Source of the DNA: a virus
Virus record (IMG/VR): IMGVR_UViG_3300007276_000340
Span: 1-22,332 of that record
Strand: one strand, 5' to 3'
Length of the DNA: 22,332 nt
The notes beneath the pieces are model-generated. The model was not told the origin of the DNA and did not search any database. It saw only the letters and a list, made by a program, of their open reading frames with translations. A program made the translations under genes and the position numbers. Below are positions 2,921-15,855 of the stretch, piece by piece (position 1 is the first letter of the stretch; each line of letters starts with the position of its first letter).

Positions 2921-3015
2921 CTTGGGAAGAGATCTTAAGTATAGCGGCGTGCGTTGCTATAGCAACGGCAACATGTGTCGGGGTTGTGGCAGTGCTGGGT
3001 AGGTTGTCGTGCTAA
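2917..3015 (+). CDS. 32-residue single-pass membrane peptide
   Basis: A short gene not captured by length-filtered ORF calling: it starts MTWEEILSIAACVAIATATC and ends GRLSC (32 codons plus TAA at 3013-3015). Residues about 7-27 form one hydrophobic helix rich in Ala, Val and Cys; the N-terminus carries two Glu and the C-terminus one Arg. It begins on an ATGA overlap with the metallophosphoesterase and has AGGAG at 2905-2909 with a 7-base spacer, the same geometry as its neighbours, so it is very probably translated. The following gene's GTG start (3009) lies inside its last codons. Function unknown. Candidates are a membrane anchor or regulator for a neighbouring enzyme, or a small toxic or host-membrane factor; nothing in the sequence decides. 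Confidence 0.7.
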   Translation: MTWEEILSIAACVAIATATCVGVVAVLGRLSC

Positions 3016-3284
3016 CAGCAGCAGTGCTCGTAACCCTGCTGGCGTTTGTGCAGAACGTCAGCTTTACAATGGTATCAAGAGCGAGGAACAGGGATAATGT
3101 TGCGTACCACGCAACGTGTTCAGTATTCAGCAACATGCTGTGGTTCCTCACCATGCACCAGCTAGTGGTAGCAGACCTTGACATAATACTAATCGTACCG
3201 TACACAATTGGCACTGTTTGTGGCTCCGTCTTTGGGGCTGCGGTATCAATGAGAATAGAGAAACTGATAGGAGCTAAGACTTGA
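3009..3284 (+). CDS. Small polytopic membrane protein, unknown function
   Basis: 91 residues from GTG at 3009, beginning MLTAAVLVTLLAFVQNVSFT and ending EKLIGAKT. Three hydrophobic stretches are visible: about 2-22, a central one around CSVFSNMLWFLTMHQLVV (about 37-54), and about 57-80 (DIILIVPYTIGTVCGSVFGAAVSM). A charged loop SRARNRDN (about 23-30) follows the first. The GTG overlaps the preceding 32-residue gene, and AGG at 3001-3003 sits 5 bases upstream. I have a memory of similar small membrane proteins (a QNVSFT...SRxRNRDN...FSNxLWFLT pattern) near nucleotide genes of tailed phages, annotated as hypothetical. It could be a carrier-like or membrane-remodelling protein. It is not an obvious holin, because it sits in the early/metabolic module. 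Confidence 0.75.
   Translation: MLTAAVLVTLLAFVQNVSFTMVSRARNRDNVAYHATCSVFSNMLWFLTMHQLVVADLDIILIVPYTIGTVCGSVFGAAVSMRIEKLIGAKT
3269..3273 (+). promoter_or_regulatory. Ribosome-binding site (AGGAG) for the TTG-started reductase
   Basis: AGGAG with a 7-base spacer (CTAAGAC) to TTG at 3281. No ATG or GTG in the reductase frame lies nearby, so this site fixes the start. Confidence 0.7.
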
Positions 3285-4921
3285 GTGAATTTAGAAATGA
3301 CTTCGGGGCAACCATATTCAAGCAGAAGTATGCGTTGTTTCCAGATCAGACTTGGGCTGAGAAGTGTGATGACATAGTTGGAGATGTCACACAGAACCTC
3401 ATGCCACCTGACATGATGGAGCAGTTGGCTGGGTATATGAAAGCCTTCATGTTCATGCCAGGTGGGCGTTACATCTACTATGCTGGCAGATTAGCCAGCT
3501 TCTACAACAACTGCTACTTGCTAAAGGGAGAGGAGGATACTCGTGAAGAGTGGGGGAACTTACTTAAAAGGGGTAGTGATTGCCTCATGTCTGGGGGTGG
3601 TATTGGCGCTGACTATTCAGTCTTTCGGCCTTCTGGTGCCCCTCTTGGAAGGACTGGGGGAATTGCTTCTGGCCCTATTCCTCTAATGAACTCGCAAAAT
3701 GAGGTAGGACGTAACGTAATGCAGGGTGGCAGCCGCCGCTCAGCCATATACGCCTCCCTCAACTGGATGCACGGTGATGCAGGTGAGTTTCTTACCATGA
3801 AGAACTGGCACGACCAAGAGATCCACAAAGGGTACAGCGTAGCTGATGCCAAGATGGATAACTTCAACTACCCTGCCCCGCTGGACATGACTAACATCTC
3901 ACTAAACTACGACAACAAGTTCTTGGATCAGGTGCAGAATGGCCTGCTTCCTCAGACCTTCGTTGACAACTGTAAGCAAGCACTGCGCACAGGTGAGCCA
4001 GGGTTCAGCTTCAACTTCGGAGATAAGGAAGATGAGACGTTGCGAAACGCTTGTACTGAGGTTACTTCTGCTGATGACAGTGATGTTTGTAATCTTGGTA
4101 GCGTTAATATGGGTGCAATCGCTACCCTTGACGAGTTTAGGGAGGTTGTTCGCCTTGCTTCTGGCTTCCTTGTGTGTGGCACCATTACTGCTGACCTTCC
4201 ATATGACAAAGTCTACCAAGTCCGAAAGAAAAACCGACGACTAGGTCTCGGCTTGATGGGGATACACGAGTGGCTACTTCAACGTGGCTATACCTACGGT
4301 ATGAACCCAGAGCTACGTCAATGGCTGGAAGTTTATAGAGAGGAGAGTGAACGTGCTGCAAATAGTATGTGTGATAGGCTTAGCATTAGCCGCCCTGTTG
4401 CTTATCGTGCCATCGCACCCACAGGAACGATTGGGATATTGGCTGGCACCACTACTGGTATTGAGCCTTTGTTTGCTGTTGCTTATAAGCGTAGGTACCT
4501 TGTTGGGGCTGGCAACTGGAAGTACGAATACGTAGTGGACAGCACAGCCGAGGAGCTGGTGACCAAGTATGACCTTGATCCCAACAAGATCGAGACCAGC
4601 CTGTCACTAGTCAACGACTTCGAGCGTAGGCTGTCATTCCAAGCAGATGTGCAGGACTATGTGGACATGGCGATCAGCTCTACGATCAACATGCCATCAT
4701 ACGGCACAGAGCACAACAACGAGGACACAGTGAAACCCTTCGCTGAAGTCCTAGCTAAGTATGCACCCCGCTTACGGGGCTTCACAGTGTACCCTGATGG
4801 GGCAAGAGGTGGTCAGCCGCTGACAACCTGTACCTACAAGGAAGCTAAGAAGCACAAGGGTATGGTGTATGAAGAGAATAGTGATGCAGCCTGTGGAGGT
4901 GGTGGTATATGCGGAATATAA
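3281..4921 (+). CDS. Adenosylcobalamin-dependent (class II) ribonucleoside reductase
   Basis: 546 residues, TTG start. It converts ribonucleotides to deoxyribonucleotides by radical chemistry. Visible core: C78 in NNCYLL, the finger-loop triad N256-x-C258-x-E260, C270 in VCNLGSVN (redox partner of C78), APTGTIG at 379-385, and a C-terminal CGGGGICGI with C538 and C544 as the mobile reductant-shuttling pair. No small-subunit (class I) or activase (class III) gene is adjacent, and the protein is compact with no visible N-terminal ATP cone, all pointing to class II, which uses B12 coenzyme instead of a second subunit. Such enzymes are typical of marine phages, which would depend on host cobalamin. 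Third-position T use is strikingly higher in the middle of the gene than at its 3' end (see findings). The 3' end overlaps a 40-codon gene by 13 bases. Confidence 0.93.
   Translation: MSEFRNDFGATIFKQKYALFPDQTWAEKCDDIVGDVTQNLMPPDMMEQLAGYMKAFMFMPGGRYIYYAGRLASFYNNCYLLKGEEDTREEWGNLLKRGSDCLMSGGGIGADYSVFRPSGAPLGRTGGIASGPIPLMNSQNEVGRNVMQGGSRRSAIYASLNWMHGDAGEFLTMKNWHDQEIHKGYSVADAKMDNFNYPAPLDMTNISLNYDNKFLDQVQNGLLPQTFVDNCKQALRTGEPGFSFNFGDKEDETLRNACTEVTSADDSDVCNLGSVNMGAIATLDEFREVVRLASGFLVCGTITADLPYDKVYQVRKKNRRLGLGLMGIHEWLLQRGYTYGMNPELRQWLEVYREESERAANSMCDRLSISRPVAYRAIAPTGTIGILAGTTTGIEPLFAVAYKRRYLVGAGNWKYEYVVDSTAEELVTKYDLDPNKIETSLSLVNDFERRLSFQADVQDYVDMAISSTINMPSYGTEHNNEDTVKPFAEVLAKYAPRLRGFTVYPDGARGGQPLTTCTYKEAKKHKGMVYEENSDAACGGGGICGI
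4895..4902 (+). promoter_or_regulatory. Ribosome-binding site for the 40-codon gene
   Basis: GGAGGTGG inside the last codons of the reductase (the Gly-rich CGGGG stretch), with 6 bases to ATG at 4909 (9 from GGAGG). It supports the otherwise overlooked small gene. The Gly codons alone could generate this sequence, so by itself it is weak. Confidence 0.45.
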
Positions 4922-5031
4922 ATAGGTGGGATAGGATCTGTTGCTGGCTTGGTTTCCATGACAAGGTTCAAATAAGCTCACGGTACCCAAAGTACTGGCG
5001 GTGCAGAGTGTGCAATGAGGATAACATATGA
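4909..5031 (+). CDS. 40-residue Cys-rich peptide (possible zinc knuckle) coupled to the kinase
   Basis: A 40-codon ORF filling the whole interval between the reductase and the kinase: MRNINRWDRICCWLGFHDKV to RCRVCNEDNI. It overlaps the reductase by 13 bases, and its TGA (5029-5031) overlaps the kinase ATG (5028) as ATGA, the junction type used elsewhere in this operon. Cys11-Cys12 (with His17) and Cys32-x-x-Cys35 could make a small zinc site, and it is rich in Trp and Arg. Without it a roughly 106-base gap would break otherwise continuous packing. Function unknown; a zinc-ribbon-like adaptor for the reductase or kinase, or a redox partner, is conceivable but unsupported. Confidence rests on the packing and the ATGA coupling. 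Confidence 0.65.
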   Translation: MRNINRWDRICCWLGFHDKVQISSRYPKYWRCRVCNEDNI

Positions 5032-5681
5032 CTAATAGATTTTATGAAGAGAGAGTGTTGCGTTCCTTGGAGCGCGAGAAGACACTGGGCACGGTGGTTA
5101 TACTTAATGGCCCGCCTGGTGTAGGCAAGGACACTATAGCTGAGCATCTTAGCAGGATGACTTTGCTGGAGGTGGACATGTTCAAGTCATCCCTCTACGA
5201 GGCAACTGCTAAGTACTTCGATGTCCCACTGCGGGACTTTACAATGCGGGCTACAGACAGGGAGCAGAAAGAGTTGCCTTGGGATGCGTTGGTACTTCAG
5301 TTGGGCGGCAGTTGGGGAGGAGAGAACGGCAACTGGGCAGTGATGATGTCTCCACGAGAGGCCCTGATATTCGTCAGTGAACGTGTGTACAAGCCACTGT
5401 TCGGTGCGGATTACTTCGGCCACGCTGCAGTCCAACTTGCTAAGGAGGGGGGTGTGTTGGATATTGTGTACAGCGACGGGGGTTTTCCTGACGAGACTCA
5501 GGTGATAAAGGACAACTGTGAAAAGTTATTCATAATCCACCTTATCCGCCCAGGTTACACCTTTGAGGGCGACTCCCGTGACTACATACAAGGTTTTGAG
5601 GCTGACACACACCAGGTGCATCTTAAGGAGGGCGACCCACTTAATGCAGTTGGTAAGATAAAGGAGATAACTGGCCTATGA
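5028..5681 (+). CDS. Deoxynucleoside monophosphate kinase
   Basis: 217 residues. A P-loop begins at residue 28 (GPPGVGKDT, 28-36) after the beta strand TVVILN; the Gly-Lys-Asp form is typical of phage dNMP kinases. It phosphorylates deoxynucleoside monophosphates, feeding the triphosphate pool from host DNA degraded by the upstream exonuclease and endonuclease. The middle contains the acidic and basic residues expected of a nucleotide-binding lid (TMRATDREQKELPWDAL), and IVYSDGGFPDE around 145-155 resembles the second nucleotide-binding strand. The start is an ATGA overlap with the 40-codon gene, with GAGG at 5017-5020 and a 7-base spacer. It is the last gene of the plus-strand unit, 28 bases before the terminator stem. 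Exact nucleotide specificity is not readable. Confidence 0.85.
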   Translation: MTNRFYEERVLRSLEREKTLGTVVILNGPPGVGKDTIAEHLSRMTLLEVDMFKSSLYEATAKYFDVPLRDFTMRATDREQKELPWDALVLQLGGSWGGENGNWAVMMSPREALIFVSERVYKPLFGADYFGHAAVQLAKEGGVLDIVYSDGGFPDETQVIKDNCEKLFIIHLIRPGYTFEGDSRDYIQGFEADTHQVHLKEGDPLNAVGKIKEITGL

Positions 5682-5748
5682 CACAAACCTACTTATAGCA
5701 GGCAATAAAAAACCCCCATTGGAGCGATCCAGTGGGGGTTTCTTCGTT
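5682..5748. other. Only substantial intergenic interval in the window
   Basis: 67 bases between the converging modules. It contains the terminator described above and no further ORF, promoter or RNA that I can support. All other junctions are overlaps or gaps of a few bases. Confidence 0.9.
5710..5741. terminator. Bidirectional intrinsic terminator between convergent operons
   Basis: Inverted repeat with arms 5710-5722 and 5729-5741 (13 pairs, one T-G wobble, six-base loop AGCGAT) containing a run of five C-G pairs. On the minus strand the stem is followed by TTTTTTATTG, a canonical U-tract; on the plus strand by TTTCTTCGTTT. It lies between the kinase stop (5681) and the stop of the last minus-strand gene (5749), so it can end transcription of both the metabolic and the structural units. 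Confidence 0.93.
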
Positions 5749-9333: not shown

Positions 9334-11057
9334 TACCTAGCCTCCGCCCAGCTTTCTTTGTTGTTAGGGTCACCGCCAAGGTACACGAAAGGGGTTCCAT
9401 CCTCGGAATTAACCACCATACCACGTACTGGCGCACCGTCACCCTGCTCTTCTGCAACTTGGTTGGGTACGAACGTAGCCATGTTGTCATTGAACCACTT
9501 GTTGTAGTCTGTTGTGCCCTCTAGGTGGGCAGCAGCCTTGACATACTCAGTCAGAGTCTTGGACGCAGTCTTGTTTAAGTCCGAGGCATCCTTGCGGAGT
9601 CCTACCACGCCCAACAGTGAGTCCTCTCCGATAAAGACAGCTCTACCACCACGCCACTCCAAGGAGACACGCTCGGTATTGTCTACTTCGTTCTCTAAGA
9701 CCTTCATCAGCTGGCCGCGGTAGGTGCCACCAAGCATCTCAGAGGCGCGTTGACGCATCTCCCCCAGCTCCTCAGGGTGGGCAACGATATACTCACCTAC
9801 CTTGGGGTCAGAGAAGAAGGACATAGCCCTTGCGTTCTCTTTTGGGTTAGACCGAGTCATTGCGTATGAGCCAGCCCCTCTTAGCATCTTGTTCATGACA
9901 CCATTCAAGTCAGCCTCACCCTTCTCACTCAGGTTACCTGTGCGCCAGTCTGCTATGCTCGGGGTAAGTACTTGAGTCTTTAACCCATTGACAAACAAGG
10001 CATTATCCAAAGCACCTATGTTAGTGTCAGGGCGCTCTGACCCACCTTGTGATTCACTCAACCCAGCTGCTACAAAGTCAGACAAAGCTAGAGACATGTC
10101 AACTGTAGCGGCAGCTGCAGGGTTTCTGAACTTAAGCTCACCAGCTATCAGTATAGCTTGAGCCTCAGGGCTTTCCTGAGCAAAAGCCCATGTCATCTTA
10201 ATTTGCATCTCCTTCATAAGAGCTGAAGCAGTCTCAGTGGTGTACTTACCCTGTAGGGTATCCACTTGTATCTGCCTCATACTAGTAAGGGCATTGATAG
10301 TGGCTGTAGCTAAGGGCTGGTCTTCACTCGCCAAGGGTATAGACTGAATACCCGCTATGTGCTTCTCAGAGGTCTGCATAATAGCACTGACCTTCTGCTC
10401 TGGGGTCATGTCAGGGTTGTCAGAAATCGTCTGATAAGACTGGACGTACATCTGGGTACGGCCCTTGGCTATACGACTCACTGTCTGCCTGGCTTCAAGC
10501 CTGTCTTTGACACGACCTGAGTTCAGCTCAGCCTCCATGCCCTCAACATGTATCATACGCTGTATGTCAGCATCAACCTTCTCAGGTGGGTCGAAGGGAC
10601 TGGCGAAGCCTTCATCGAAAGCCTCTTGCCTCTTCTTCTCTTGAGCGCGTTGTGTTTTGCCTACGTCTTTAACCAACGGCCCCAGACCAGATGGCTCGAC
10701 GTAGGACTTATGAGCGGTAGCTAGCGCAGCACTGGCCGTAGGGTTACTAGCTGAGTACTCGCGGTAGATGGTGCGAGACAGAGCTTGAGCCTCCGACAAG
10801 CGGCTAGGGTCTTGCTCGACCATATCTGCTAGCTGTTGTTGTTTACTTAGATAGTGACCAACCACCTTGTTGTTGAACTGGGTAGCTGAGCTGCTAGCTG
10901 CAGTGGCTCTCCGGTTCGCTGTGAAGATGGTGGCTACATCGGCTATACCGTTAGCCAAGGCAGCCCCAACCCCACTGTTTCCAGCAGGGTCAGCTACGCC
11001 TGAGGAGCCACTAACTGGGGACTGCTCTGTTGGTGCTGTTTTAGTAAAATCAGTCAT
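9333..11057 (-). CDS. Internal virion (ejection) protein, gp15-position
   Basis: 574 residues from ATG at 11057, with GAGGA at 11063-11067 and 6 bases of spacer; a TTG at 11069 is less likely. The start overlaps the upstream stop by 8 bases. The protein is long, soluble, predominantly helical, Ala/Gln/Glu/Thr-rich, with a low-complexity N-terminus (APTEQSPVSGSSGVADPAGN), repeated 'Q-T-I/Q-T-S' helices and no recognised catalytic motif. A modest Gly/Ala-rich stretch lies near residue 30. Lying between the giant protein and the lysozyme, downstream of a gp14-like gene, it matches the place of T7 ejection proteins that leave the capsid first and build the trans-envelope channel. Family identity is by context; I do not see a sequence motif that proves it. 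Confidence 0.75.
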   Translation of the reverse strand: MTDFTKTAPTEQSPVSGSSGVADPAGNSGVGAALANGIADVATIFTANRRATAASSSATQFNNKVVGHYLSKQQQLADMVEQDPSRLSEAQALSRTIYREYSASNPTASAALATAHKSYVEPSGLGPLVKDVGKTQRAQEKKRQEAFDEGFASPFDPPEKVDADIQRMIHVEGMEAELNSGRVKDRLEARQTVSRIAKGRTQMYVQSYQTISDNPDMTPEQKVSAIMQTSEKHIAGIQSIPLASEDQPLATATINALTSMRQIQVDTLQGKYTTETASALMKEMQIKMTWAFAQESPEAQAILIAGELKFRNPAAAATVDMSLALSDFVAAGLSESQGGSERPDTNIGALDNALFVNGLKTQVLTPSIADWRTGNLSEKGEADLNGVMNKMLRGAGSYAMTRSNPKENARAMSFFSDPKVGEYIVAHPEELGEMRQRASEMLGGTYRGQLMKVLENEVDNTERVSLEWRGGRAVFIGEDSLLGVVGLRKDASDLNKTASKTLTEYVKAAAHLEGTTDYNKWFNDNMATFVPNQVAEEQGDGAPVRGMVVNSEDGTPFVYLGGDPNNKESWAEAR

Positions 11058-14000
11058 CGTCTTCCTCAAATGTAGGTTCTTCTAGCATGCCTCTAAGGCG
11101 TTGCTTATGGCTGTCAGATAGGTTGGTCTGGTTGATCAACCTTCGGAAGTCATCCTCACCAGCTGAGCCGAATGCCTCTAGCATCTTGAGATAGACTATA
11201 CCATCCCCAGACTTAACACTCCTGCTCATGTTCTTGAGCATCTCCTGCAGATAGAAGTTCTTATGCTCTTCTGGCAAGTAAGACTGTACCACTGACAAGT
11301 AGTTGTATACAAACTCCTTATCGACTAGGCTAATACCATCGTCCCTAAGTACCTTGACAAGCTCGTTGTGTGTCACCTTAGCGTCAGCCTCCAAGTCCTT
11401 CCGTATCTCATGTATCTGTTTCTGGACTAGGAAGTTTGAGGAGGAGGTAGCTGTGGAGAAACCCAACGCAACTGCGAAGGCTTCCGCGGATGTCACATCA
11501 TCATCCATGATGTAGGTTGAGCTGCTGTTCATCAAGACGCCCTTCTTCTTGGCTGCGTACGCACGCATGGTGTTGCTATATCCAGAGCTTATACTCAGCC
11601 AGGCATCCATAGCCTGCATCACATCCTTCGGCTCTGCACTGCCAGTCCAGATGTCCGCCACTACACTCAAGCTCTTCTTAAAAGCATCAGTGATACGTGG
11701 GTTCTTTCCGAAGAAGAGCTGACCACCAGGGCTGGCTGCTATGACGTTGTACGTACCTTCGTTGAGCATTGTGTCGAGAAAGCTCAAAGATGCGTACATG
11801 TCGAAGGGAGCTAAGCCACCCCAGTCTACTCGACTGACTGGCCCACCCTCCTCATCAAACACCTGCAAGCCCCTGTTCAGCATGTACGCCTCAGTGCCAT
11901 CCATCAGCAGACGCCTCAGATCTTCGTCCTCCTCACGAGCAATAGATTGCAAGAAGGCGTCTACGACAACACCAGCTGCGGCTGTTGGTACGCCATAGGC
12001 TAATGTGTTAAAGGCAGCCAGCTTGAGCTTCTGAGTCTTACTAAGGCCACGGTTAGTGGTAGCTGTTGTGGCGAACTTGTGTGGAACCTGCTGGTACTGC
12101 ATTACCATCCCAAGCATGTTCTGGTTGTAGGGCATGTCTCCTGCTTTGTTCATAGAGTAGGTGAAGTTCCTAGCAGCGCCCAAGGCAGAGTCCACGATCT
12201 CCTGATCGAAGGTCTTGCCCCCTTTCCCAGCCGCTGCCAACGCCTTCTGCTCCATGTTGTAGAACGTCAAGAAAGCTGACAGCAAGTTCATACGCTCACC
12301 AGCATCAAAGCCAGCCTTACGTATGCCAGAGGTCACCTTACCCATTGCGCTTAAACCCGCATTGTGAGAACCCATCATGGACTCAGCTAGGTAGGTCAAG
12401 TCACCTTGGAGTAGGTTGGTCTTGTCAACAGCCTGCCACACACCACTACGATCTACCAGATCTACTAGTGCTGCAGTCACTGCCAAGTCCTGGCCCATGG
12501 CCTCCTCGACCAACTTGCGTGCTTCCGCCATCCCACCAGCACTCTTACCACCCTTAAGGTAGGGTTGGTATAAGCTCTTGTACAGAACCACTGAAGCCAT
12601 CTGCTTCGGCAGTTGTGTCATAACAAACTTAGGTGCTATGGCTAAGAGCTGCAGACCTTGGTGGCTCTGTATCAGGAGCTGACGCAGAGGGTTAAGGGCT
12701 AAGTAAGCGTGGAAGCTGCTGTTCTTGAGCAACCCTGTCGGACTTACTTCAGACAGGTGGCTCATCATGCGTTCAGCATCGTCAGCTAGCGGCAGACTTG
12801 ATTCGCCAAAGGCGTTAGCCATACCTCGGAACAAGGACTTAGAAGCATCGTCCAAGGAGTTGTTATAGCCATTCTGCATGTATTGGATATACTCGAAAGT
12901 AGTCCTTGCATCACCTAGCTCCTTGTCTCCGTGCTTACCCTCTTTGGTTATCTCTGTCCACTTGTTGGGGAAGCTAACCTCACCATTTACCTTAGGTGTG
13001 AGGTGCCCATACTGCGCATTGAAGCGGGCCTTCATACCCTCAAGCCAGTCACGCATAGCTATCCGCTCAGAGAGGGATCGTGCTGCACGCTGCATGGATT
13101 GGGCGGGGTCTTCTACGTGGGCATCCAAGGCGTTGACGTTAGAGGTTGCATCAGCATCCTCAAGGCGTTTGCCACGGAACCTAGTTGCAATCCGGCCATT
13201 GGCCTGATGCAGATCCCAGTAGTCATCACTCCCTATGTCAATCTCTTTCTTGTCGCCACGAACACCACCCCAAGAGGCTACACCATCTTCAGATGTGATA
13301 CCATCTTCACGAGCCAGCTTCTCCAGCATACGCCGAGCGGTCTTCTGATCCTTGGCTACAGCCACTGCCTTGTTGTACAGGAAGTTGCCCTTAGTATCCG
13401 TGACGTTACGTGTAACAAACACTGGGTTCTTATAGGTTACAGTGTAGTATCCTTCACGATAGGACAGGACATGGTCAAGTGAGCTAAGCTTGCGGAAGTA
13501 ATCAGACTTGGTGTTCGAGGACATTATGTACTCTATGATCTCACCACCGTCGTCGATGCCAGCACGCAACCGAGCCACAGTACCACCACTCTCATACAAG
13601 GCGTTAAGCTCGTTCTTGCTCAGGCGGGTTACCTCATCTGTTACTGGGTTATATACTCTGTTATTATTATATATACCTTTCTCTAATGGTTTAGCATAGA
13701 GCCTACTACCATTTACCCCATCAGTGAGTACCATGTACCCATTAGCATCTAAGCTCCTGATAAGATCCATGTTCTCTAGGAGGTATGCTGTGTCCCAGTA
13801 CTCTCGGAACTTCTGAAGAGCTTGTATTGAGTTTCGGTCATACCCATTAGCAGACAGGTAGTTAGTGTTTAACTTAAGACCCTCTCGGTTAGCTTCATGG
13901 ATGTACTCAGTTATCATCTCCTTCTGGAGAGGGCTTGCTGACTTGTAGCGTCCGGCAAACTCCGAAGCTAGCTGCATGAACCCATCTTGTATACCAGCAG

Positions 14001-15855
14001 CCCTGTCAACGGCCACAGAGGCCGACTGAACCATTCTAGGGTCTAACATGGATGCTGGGTCAAGTACATTCCGTTGCAGCCTAGCGCCACCTAGGGAAGC
14101 CTTAGGCATGAAGCGGTCAAAGAGGTTATACTTCACATCGAAGTGAGCATACGTAGCTATATCGTTGGGGGCTATCTTGTACTTGTAATCCAAGGCAGCA
14201 ACGAAGTCACCTTGAGTGACAGCGTCGAACTTGTCTGCCGCAGGGGTGTAACCCTCTGGGCCACGTACCATGATGTCAAAGTCTTGGTCTCGGACACCCA
14301 GCGTACGCAGATTGAACAGAACTTGCTCTGTTGCGTCAGCTGCAGTGAGGAAACCACCGTCCCGTCGGCCATATACGGCTGTAATGTGGACTCTGTCGTC
14401 CCCCATACGCCTTCCGATAGTGGATGAGTTGCTCAAGATGCGGATATCGGTGACATCACGGAACTTATTGACGATCATAGCCGCGGCAGCGTCCTTTTCA
14501 GCTATGGTGTACTGGTTTCCACCGCTGATGTGCGCTCTCTCCACCATTTCTTGGTTGCCATTGATGGCCCGCGCCTCAGATGGCTTGAGAGGTGGTACTT
14601 TAGGCTTGATTGGAGCGGATATCATCTCCTTACTGCCCTTTGCATTAGGCGGGACGCTCACTCCCTTGCTTGGAGGGGGTGGTAACAGCTGTCGGCCAAC
14701 CTGAGTACCTATCTCAGGGGCTATGTCGTCCACAATAGCGGCCTCTCTGGTAGTACCAGCCAGCAGACGGGCTGCTTCACCAGTCTCATCCATCTCTATA
14801 GCCTCGATCACCTTACGGTAGCGGCCAGGGTTGGAGTTGCTCATAGTGGCAATGACTGAGCTGGGGTTGGGGGCAGGCTTGATGAAGCGGGTAGCGAAAC
14901 GCCCAGCCTCACCAGCTATGCCACCCAGCAGGGGGATTATGTCCAGCACTGAGGCAGCGTTATCGAAGAATGCCTGTGTGTCGTCAATGTAACCACGCTC
15001 AACCACATCCTTCAGCAGGTTGTACTCAGCAAACTGGTTGTCGCCTGACAACATTGCTGAAGACTCCGTAGAGACAATGCCAATCAGGTCACGGGCAAAG
15101 TCTATCCGCTGCTCAGGTGGTATTGCGGCTACAACCTCGGCCAGGTCACGCTTGACATTACCCATCAGGGAATCTCTAGCTACACCCTTGCCACTTAAGA
15201 TGTCCTCCCACAGGGTGCTTACTGCAGCTGCAGGTGTCATCTCATTCTTGTTTACTTTGTTCTGTATTTCATTAACTAAGGTAGTCTCTGCTAAGGGAAC
15301 CATATACAAAGAGAATATGTCCCAGACACCTTGAGAGTACTCAAAGTCATCCTGCTTAGCTACCTCAGTCATCACCATCTGGCTGATGGTTGACTGCACA
15401 GCAGCCTCCTCACCCATCCGACCAGCGTGGGTCAGGCGTACCTTGGACTGATAGTCACTCTCGTTGTCTGAGGGTGACACGATCATCTCCTCCTTGAGCA
15501 GAGCTTTGAAGTCTGTGTCTGCTTGGTTCAAGATGAAGTTAGCGTTTAGTGCGAAAGACTTATCGCCCTGCCCCACCTGAGGGTCAGCCATAGTCTGTAT
15601 CAGAGCTTCGTTGGAAGCTGTCCGGCTCTCCTCTCTGGCTCCGCTAAGAACGGACTCCGAGTACTGAGGGTCGTCGCTGTCCAAGCCGCCAACGGAAGCC
15701 TCGTAGGCCTCTGCTACATCTTCTCCGCCCAGCATAGCAACGTGAGCTGCCTTGTTCTGGTTGGAGAGTGGAGTCGTTTGCACAGGCTCCGGCGTGGCCT
15801 GACGAAGGTCATCCATTCCGATTGCTGTGCCTTGTAAGTCATCCAAGGTGTCCAT
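11050..15855 (-). CDS. Giant internal virion (ejection) protein, gp16-like by size and position
   Basis: 1601 residues, the largest gene in the window; ATG at 15855 with AAGGAAG upstream. T7 gp16 is about 1300 residues. Visible layout: acidic N-terminus (1-135), a helical region with a hydrophobic stretch (about 302-315, VLDIIPLLGGIAGEAG), a proline-rich linker (391-426), a mixed region with many Tyr/Asn, and a helical C-terminal third containing a weakly hydrophobic segment near 1285-1305 (LAYGVPTAAAGVVVDAFL) and an acidic end (EEPTFEEDDD). I see no lytic transglycosylase signature such as gp16's N-terminal domain; wall hydrolysis seems to be supplied by the separate GH24 protein. A very AT-rich patch lies at 13641-13700. 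It is presumed to be ejected into the host envelope with the 574-residue protein; this rests on size and synteny. Confidence 0.8.
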   Translation of the reverse strand: MDTLDDLQGTAIGMDDLRQATPEPVQTTPLSNQNKAAHVAMLGGEDVAEAYEASVGGLDSDDPQYSESVLSGAREESRTASNEALIQTMADPQVGQGDKSFALNANFILNQADTDFKALLKEEMIVSPSDNESDYQSKVRLTHAGRMGEEAAVQSTISQMVMTEVAKQDDFEYSQGVWDIFSLYMVPLAETTLVNEIQNKVNKNEMTPAAAVSTLWEDILSGKGVARDSLMGNVKRDLAEVVAAIPPEQRIDFARDLIGIVSTESSAMLSGDNQFAEYNLLKDVVERGYIDDTQAFFDNAASVLDIIPLLGGIAGEAGRFATRFIKPAPNPSSVIATMSNSNPGRYRKVIEAIEMDETGEAARLLAGTTREAAIVDDIAPEIGTQVGRQLLPPPPSKGVSVPPNAKGSKEMISAPIKPKVPPLKPSEARAINGNQEMVERAHISGGNQYTIAEKDAAAAMIVNKFRDVTDIRILSNSSTIGRRMGDDRVHITAVYGRRDGGFLTAADATEQVLFNLRTLGVRDQDFDIMVRGPEGYTPAADKFDAVTQGDFVAALDYKYKIAPNDIATYAHFDVKYNLFDRFMPKASLGGARLQRNVLDPASMLDPRMVQSASVAVDRAAGIQDGFMQLASEFAGRYKSASPLQKEMITEYIHEANREGLKLNTNYLSANGYDRNSIQALQKFREYWDTAYLLENMDLIRSLDANGYMVLTDGVNGSRLYAKPLEKGIYNNNRVYNPVTDEVTRLSKNELNALYESGGTVARLRAGIDDGGEIIEYIMSSNTKSDYFRKLSSLDHVLSYREGYYTVTYKNPVFVTRNVTDTKGNFLYNKAVAVAKDQKTARRMLEKLAREDGITSEDGVASWGGVRGDKKEIDIGSDDYWDLHQANGRIATRFRGKRLEDADATSNVNALDAHVEDPAQSMQRAARSLSERIAMRDWLEGMKARFNAQYGHLTPKVNGEVSFPNKWTEITKEGKHGDKELGDARTTFEYIQYMQNGYNNSLDDASKSLFRGMANAFGESSLPLADDAERMMSHLSEVSPTGLLKNSSFHAYLALNPLRQLLIQSHQGLQLLAIAPKFVMTQLPKQMASVVLYKSLYQPYLKGGKSAGGMAEARKLVEEAMGQDLAVTAALVDLVDRSGVWQAVDKTNLLQGDLTYLAESMMGSHNAGLSAMGKVTSGIRKAGFDAGERMNLLSAFLTFYNMEQKALAAAGKGGKTFDQEIVDSALGAARNFTYSMNKAGDMPYNQNMLGMVMQYQQVPHKFATTATTNRGLSKTQKLKLAAFNTLAYGVPTAAAGVVVDAFLQSIAREEDEDLRRLLMDGTEAYMLNRGLQVFDEEGGPVSRVDWGGLAPFDMYASLSFLDTMLNEGTYNVIAASPGGQLFFGKNPRITDAFKKSLSVVADIWTGSAEPKDVMQAMDAWLSISSGYSNTMRAYAAKKKGVLMNSSSTYIMDDDVTSAEAFAVALGFSTATSSSNFLVQKQIHEIRKDLEADAKVTHNELVKVLRDDGISLVDKEFVYNYLSVVQSYLPEEHKNFYLQEMLKNMSRSVKSGDGIVYLKMLEAFGSAGEDDFRRLINQTNLSDSHKQRLRGMLEEPTFEEDDD

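Follow-up and report, generated by a model that had tools for sequence, protein, structure and literature searches.

A putative one-zinc mini protein encoded between the reductase and kinase genes of a virus, and its relatives among phages

In the searched libraries the tiny phage proteins considered here are represented only by PHROGs of no named function and by weak matches to DUF1660. Four PHROGs (15735, 2670, 15926 and 8294), with profiles of 41-66 positions, are matched by members of the group. Of these, phrog_15735 is reached at E 0.1 or better by 25 of the 33 rows of one alignment of the group (A5), with Etna gp41 at 5.8e-26. A few members weakly match the first half of DUF1660 (PF07874, a prophage protein; best E 0.023), and those whose bit scores are shown reach 15.4 and 15.3, under the cut-off of 21.4. 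No paper on DUF1660 together with phage was found in the open-access library searched, and among the titles and abstract starts listed there none names the family; Fremin et al. 2022 may contain such families. The window, by which we mean the whole stretch of 22,332 nucleotides of viral DNA that was analyzed, carries a 40-codon gene whose product, judged by its sequence, would be a divergent member of this group that no searched library reports. Its only match in PHROGs is to phrog_15735 at E 3.1 (9 bits), with nothing at 0.1; Pfam, DUF1660 included, gives no match up to E 10, and NCBIfam none up to E 5.

Among described proteins, gp16 of phage Mangalitsa and its phiEcoM-GJ1 homologue resemble the window protein in their length of 39 aa, in the same four predicted ligands and in being encoded by a short gene between neighbors. 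Mangalitsa gp16 differs in that its gene follows the SSB gene and is not beside a reductase or a kinase, and in that its core reads C-F-I-G-L-H as against C-W-L-G-F-H. Retroviral-type zinc knuckles have the spacing C-x2-C-x4-H-x4-C, whereas the window peptide is spaced C-x4-H-x14-C-x2-C, with the CxxC 14 residues past the His. The “mini zinc knuckle” proposed in an earlier sequence-only reading of this DNA is supported as a mini zinc-binding pattern. A further likeness is to the haloviral CxxC micro-proteins (PMC7230728), which are likewise viral, are shorter than 100 aa, bear zinc-finger signatures and for the most part have no known function; they differ in coming from archaeal viruses and are described there by their CxxC motifs.

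The 40-codon gene and its locus

The open reading frame at 4909-5031 (+) consists of 40 codons plus TGA and encodes MRNINRWDRICCWLGFHDKVQISSRYPKYWRCRVCNEDNI, a peptide with four Cys (11, 12, 32 and 35), one His (17), three Trp and six Arg. By motif, profiles and model it is a predicted one-zinc mini finger, C12-x4-H17 ... C32-x2-C35. Its upstream neighbor (3281-4921, +) is a ribonucleotide reductase, NrdJ-like (B12 type) by its match to the HMM NrdJ_Z (9.7e-59, 199.5 bits, under the curated cut-off of 399.95), and its downstream neighbor (5028-5681, +) is a deoxynucleoside monophosphate kinase (phrog_139, 1.6e-34). The frame fills the gap between the two just as the sequence-only reading had described, with an ATG 13 nt within the 3' end of the reductase gene and a stop that overlaps the kinase start as ATGA (5028-5031, +). 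A Shine-Dalgarno-like GGAGG (4895-4899, +; read from the sequence), the beginning of GGAGGTGG at 4895-4902, ends 9 nt before the mini-gene ATG. It doubles as reductase Gly codons (the string reads GGA GGT GGT GGT in the reductase frame), and the ATG itself arises from the Ile-Cys codons ATA TGC; since both are spelled by reductase codons, both may be by-products of the reductase gene. The kinase has its own GAGG (5017-5020), 7 nt ahead of its ATG, and a terminator-like hairpin of 14 pairs, 7 of them GC, lies 3' of the kinase gene (5710-5741, +; a consensus match only). The region 4870-5060 folds more weakly as RNA than 200 of 200 shuffles (z 2.88), and we therefore propose no RNA element there.

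The length of the mini frame is uninformative taken alone, because the window contains 184 ORFs of at least 35 aa (six frames, open-ended ones counted). GC at the three codon positions is 0.35/0.43/0.58 in the mini gene versus 0.58/0.37/0.58 in the kinase gene, position 1 being atypical. What lifts the mini gene above chance is the family match described below, in which it ranks first of 12,939 ORFs and withstands a shuffle test. On these sequence comparisons it is very likely a real, easily missed phage gene. Directly before the reductase, 3009-3284 (+) encodes a 91-aa hydrophobic protein (phrog_33664, 3.3e-6), and one other locus (L047) has a stretch 39% identical to this protein upstream of its reductase.

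Relatives and the conserved pattern

Searching phage records by tblastn with the mini peptide gave weak matches to 20 records (best E 0.2), among which two kinds share its pattern. One is gp23 of Curtobacterium phage Fairywren, a protein of 42 aa; the other is found in Vibrio phages K404 and K45, related to each other, where the pattern is the N-terminal part of a longer protein (204 aa in K404). From the Fairywren search came more Curtobacterium phages, Microbacterium phages Etna and Endor and Gordonia phage Phendrix. C12, G15, H17, C32 and C35 (window numbering) do not vary in either of two alignments, one of 9 and one of 19 sequences, window included; in the larger, W, G, F and H are in part dictated by the pattern used for the search. 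Members were recognized by C-x-x-G-x-H followed by C-x-x-C in a short frame, which the window peptide has; many also carry a Trp two residues past the His, where the window has Lys, and the position of C11 is usually occupied by another residue. The BLAST matches in Gordonia phage EMoore and Pseudanabaena phage Pam2, like the gene ahead of the kinase in phage Spp16, are not members, and the 50,000 of 50,509 bases of Pseudomonas phage O4 that were covered hold no clear member. On one viral contig two different members lie in tandem (L097, 267-401 and 401-505, -).

DNA patterns for the first half of the motif only were scanned through IMG/VR, and continuation to CxxC was then counted. With CW[LF]GFH[DE], which fits the window, CxxC follows in 18 of 29 viral matches (13 of 20 distinct), the other 11 being chance frames without it. 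With the sister pattern CW[LF]GFHxW, which the window does not fit, it follows in 50 of 55 (41 of 46 distinct proteins). As controls, the sister pattern in cellular genomes continues to CxxC in 4 of 46 matches, and any C-x4-H site in the reductase loci in 16 of 1055. The gap limit was 30 for the CW[LF]GFH[DE] scan and the C-x4-H control and 40 for both CW[LF]GFHxW scans, and 12 loci are common to the two viral sets. None of the 25 matches to CC-W-[LF]-G-F-H, which has the double Cys of the window, continues to CxxC. They have the look of chance frames, and C11 does not belong to the motif. The sequence-only reading had counted the CC pair and the CxxC together; its zinc pattern holds for C12, H17, C32 and C35, which are conserved in the relatives, but C11 drops out. 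The pattern turns up in short genes from phages unrelated to one another, and the group to which the window gene very likely belongs is widespread.

Profiles built without the window lead to the same gene. In a profile search with eight isolate members the window ORF has E 8e-6 among 13,423 ORFs, the next match, with the isolate-member loci set aside, being at 0.024. Three other profiles each rank it first of the 12,939 six-frame ORFs of the window plus L001-L080: that of the IMG/VR members (E 7.2e-7), that of the IMG/VR members plus two coliphage copies (E 3.7e-7) and that of six coliphage copies alone (E 0.088). Shuffled versions of the mini peptide reached the real score in 2 of 5000 cases with the coliphage profile and in 0 of 5000 with either of the other two. 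The earlier suspicion of an overlooked gene is borne out to the extent that the gene looks real by these matches. The profile evidence is partly circular, because the first members were chosen via single-sequence BLAST likeness to the window; with members chosen by window similarity and patterns taken from members, the half-motif test and the structural route are the cleaner lines. When 50 of 81 reductase records (49 from L001-L080, and L085) were searched over their whole length with a profile, two weak matches appeared, in frames of 232 and 84 aa. These begin only at positions 12 and 13 of the 39-position profile, lack C-W-x-G-F and were not counted as members. Against the PDB, the best stretch of each of the 60 matches listed (of 88) begins no earlier than profile position 14, and hence none of them spans C-W-x-G-F-H; most are classical zinc fingers, rubredoxins or ribosomal proteins.

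The relatives also show purifying selection. In six pairs of four Curtobacterium-phage genes pS is 0.62-0.97 versus a pN of 0.19-0.38, and in the Etna-Endor pair 0.30 versus 0.03. Among six coliphage copies, compared over the first 36 codons, all variation is synonymous at 9 codons and includes replacement at 6, the 15 pairs having pS 0-0.38 and pN 0-0.056; here GJ1-Bp7 (0.05/0.034) shows hardly any synonymous excess and ST32-EcoM1 (0/0.011) none. The L127-L132 pair differs by one replacement, its sole difference.

Stand-alone members occur in 13 named isolate loci, a hand-picked set and no sample, from which the two Vibrio phages are excluded, the motif there lying inside an annotated longer protein. 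The member is annotated in seven (Etna, Endor, Ellison17, Reje, Fairywren, Mangalitsa and GJ1) and unannotated in six (Ayka, Phendrix, ST32, DE15, Bp7 and EcoM1). In the deposited genomes of these six, the unannotated frames (301-417 in L242-L245, 301-420 in L090 and 301-411 in L092) fill gaps between annotated genes. Annotation thus misses such frames in 6 of the 13 hand-picked loci, and one simple motif recovers many missed members. The phiEcoM-GJ1 group of coliphages offers a laboratory system for probing the function of the mini protein.

Predicted fold and genomic setting

The AlphaFold input was a 33-row alignment of the window peptide and 32 of 44 distinct members, 12 being left out. 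The window model (pLDDT 89) has a helix at 6-13 and strands at 19-23 and 29-32, with the CxxC after a strand and no helix following it. The model of a second member (pLDDT 81; helix 3-7, strands 13-16, 27-30 and 36-38, further helix 17-23) has the same helix-then-strands order plus an extra short helix. The invariant C-x4-H ... C-x2-C, with a strand ahead of the CxxC and a helix running into the first Cys, is what one structural zinc would fit. The window peptide is predicted to form a helix at its N terminus and then a beta hairpin, with one zinc on C12/H17/C32/C35, and the proteins of the group are probably built around a single zinc ion.

In BFVD the best structural match is to a Mangalitsa protein of 39 aa, with a TM of 0.70 and an rmsd of 1.2 over 32 columns; at E 0.051 it is not significant by E-value, none of the 298 matches being at E 0.001 or better. 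Against the PDB, Foldseek gives nothing better than E 1.8 and VIA-align nothing with Z of at least 2. The BFVD entry is taken to be Mangalitsa gp16 by length and organism; the 50,000 of 52,329 Mangalitsa bases examined hold two annotated 39-aa genes, gp16 and one whose product is without Cys. The gp16 protein, MKILCFIGLHNW...FWVCKHC (in full MKILCFIGLHNWEISHTNDYVTFWVCKHCSEMREEYHGQ), has its four ligands as in the window peptide, and it is the top match of a window-free profile within the Mangalitsa genome (E 0.001). It matches 38 records (by organism name 36 Escherichia, one Shigella and one Staphylococcus). A kinase partnership suggested by Mangalitsa, which was met in the kinase search, was set aside, its member lying after the SSB gene and ~17 kb from the kinase.

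The sequence-only reading had also proposed the mini protein as a small partner of the reductase or the kinase, and the surroundings of the relatives support neither. The reductase has at least 599 relatives, and of the loci of the best 80, 77 include the reductase stop (L045, L046 and L080 end before it). The frames after the reductase vary among those listed for the 77. In the 75 relatives whose sequence runs on for at least 123 nt past the reductase, the motif is absent from up to 450 nt downstream, and across the 80 loci no frame of 25-130 aa combines motif and CxxC. A kinase match was found in none of the 80 loci, 64 of which extend at least 800 nt downstream, and the kinase query found no relative among viral contigs. 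A near relative of the window carrying the mini gene was likewise absent from the set searched, which may omit very near records, so that a sister phage may still have a conserved copy. The earlier expectation that a real gene would recur in related phages therefore fails for the near relatives of this locus and holds for phages at large.

Among the 44 distinct members, exactly 4 nt are shared with the next ORF in 16 and with the previous ORF in 16, and 4-nt overlaps join the member gene of Etna and Endor both to the helicase gene and to the gene before it. The ATGA overlap with the kinase is accordingly an ordinary arrangement. The neighbor was chosen by rule, the longest adjoining ORF being taken, and 41 of 42 downstream and 28 of 38 upstream picks were scanned, the 11 dropped ones lying mostly atop the member itself or being its sister gene. 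No PHROG family is matched by more than one of these neighbors. The lists give 25 of 56 and 25 of 33 families, several of which can belong to one neighbor protein. Those with a name are largely replication and nucleotide families (polymerase, primase, ligase, methyltransferase, MazG and NinG), with lysis, tail and structural families also listed upstream. A reductase- or kinase-specific role is unsupported, because in the 75 usable relatives the motif does not follow the reductase, no kinase was found near it in the 80 loci and no neighbor family is common to the members. The reductase-kinase setting looks like one case of a general habit and no conserved partnership.

Readings of function

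On balance we consider it probable that the window peptide is a one-zinc adaptor of an early operon, with a basic, aromatic surface held by the zinc. The mini protein would be made in an early operon with nucleotide-synthesis genes, a label we infer from gene content and the terminator-like site. A single zinc on C12, H17, C32 and C35 would pin the helix and the beta hairpin of the 40-residue protein and so hold the surface, whose binding partner in genome replication or host takeover may be a nucleic acid or else a protein of phage or host. A zinc-pinned binding surface with three Trp and six Arg would be economical, since 40 residues leave little space for a catalytic core. Computation supports the frame, the family, the conserved C/H pattern, the selection in relatives and the predicted fold; translation in the window phage, zinc binding and the adaptor role are what we infer.

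The main rival, to which we give a modest minority chance, is that the mini finger serves no phage enzyme and is a host-takeover inhibitor, binding and shutting down RNA polymerase, a factor of replication or defense, or another protein of the host. The viral bias of CW[LF]GFHxW with CxxC (50 in viral contigs versus 4 in a far larger cellular set), the patchy occurrence of the gene (0 of 75 after the reductase) and the place of Mangalitsa gp16 among many small genes would all suit it, but the named neighbor families are largely replication genes. That the frame does no more than hand ribosomes on from the end of the reductase gene to the kinase start, with an inert product, seems to us improbable: such a spacer would explain why the frame starts in the reductase, fills the gap exactly and ends in ATGA, but has no need of the C/H/C/C pattern common to unrelated phages, and the kinase start has a GAGG of its own.

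Very unlikely is a redox peptide, a possibility entertained in the sequence-only reading, whose CxxC would reduce the reductase in the fashion of a mini glutaredoxin or NrdH. The gene adjoins a reductase, and beside the reductase genes of the related phage O4 lies a short gene for a thioredoxin-like protein (WCGPC; L246, 24600-24848, -). Glutaredoxin, NrdH and thioredoxin carry the CxxC at the start of a helix, however, whereas that of the window peptide is modeled after a strand and, paired with a conserved Cys and His, suits zinc. Pfam gives no thioredoxin or glutaredoxin match, and members occur in many contexts other than that of a reductase. Just as hard to credit is a chance frame without a role, for which the 184 ORFs, the start and Shine-Dalgarno string spelled by reductase codons, the odd GC at codon position 1 and the 11 of 29 half-motif matches that are chance frames could be cited, but against which stand the first rank with three window-free profiles and the shuffle counts of 0, 0 and 2 in 5000.

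A broader and more speculative picture, which we regard as possible but doubtful, is that PHROGs 15735, 2670, 15926 and 8294, DUF1660 and many unannotated frames form one phage-specific superfamily of one-zinc micro-adaptors. These would pass readily from one replication or nucleotide-synthesis operon to another and all dock to the same component of the host or the replisome; the copy in the window would bring the superfamily into a reductase-kinase operon.

Elsewhere in the window, 11050-15855 (-) encodes a 1601-aa internal virion protein. It shares 31% identity with its counterpart in Pseudomonas phage O4 (Zobellviridae, Paundecimvirus), a likeness that hints at the family of the window phage.
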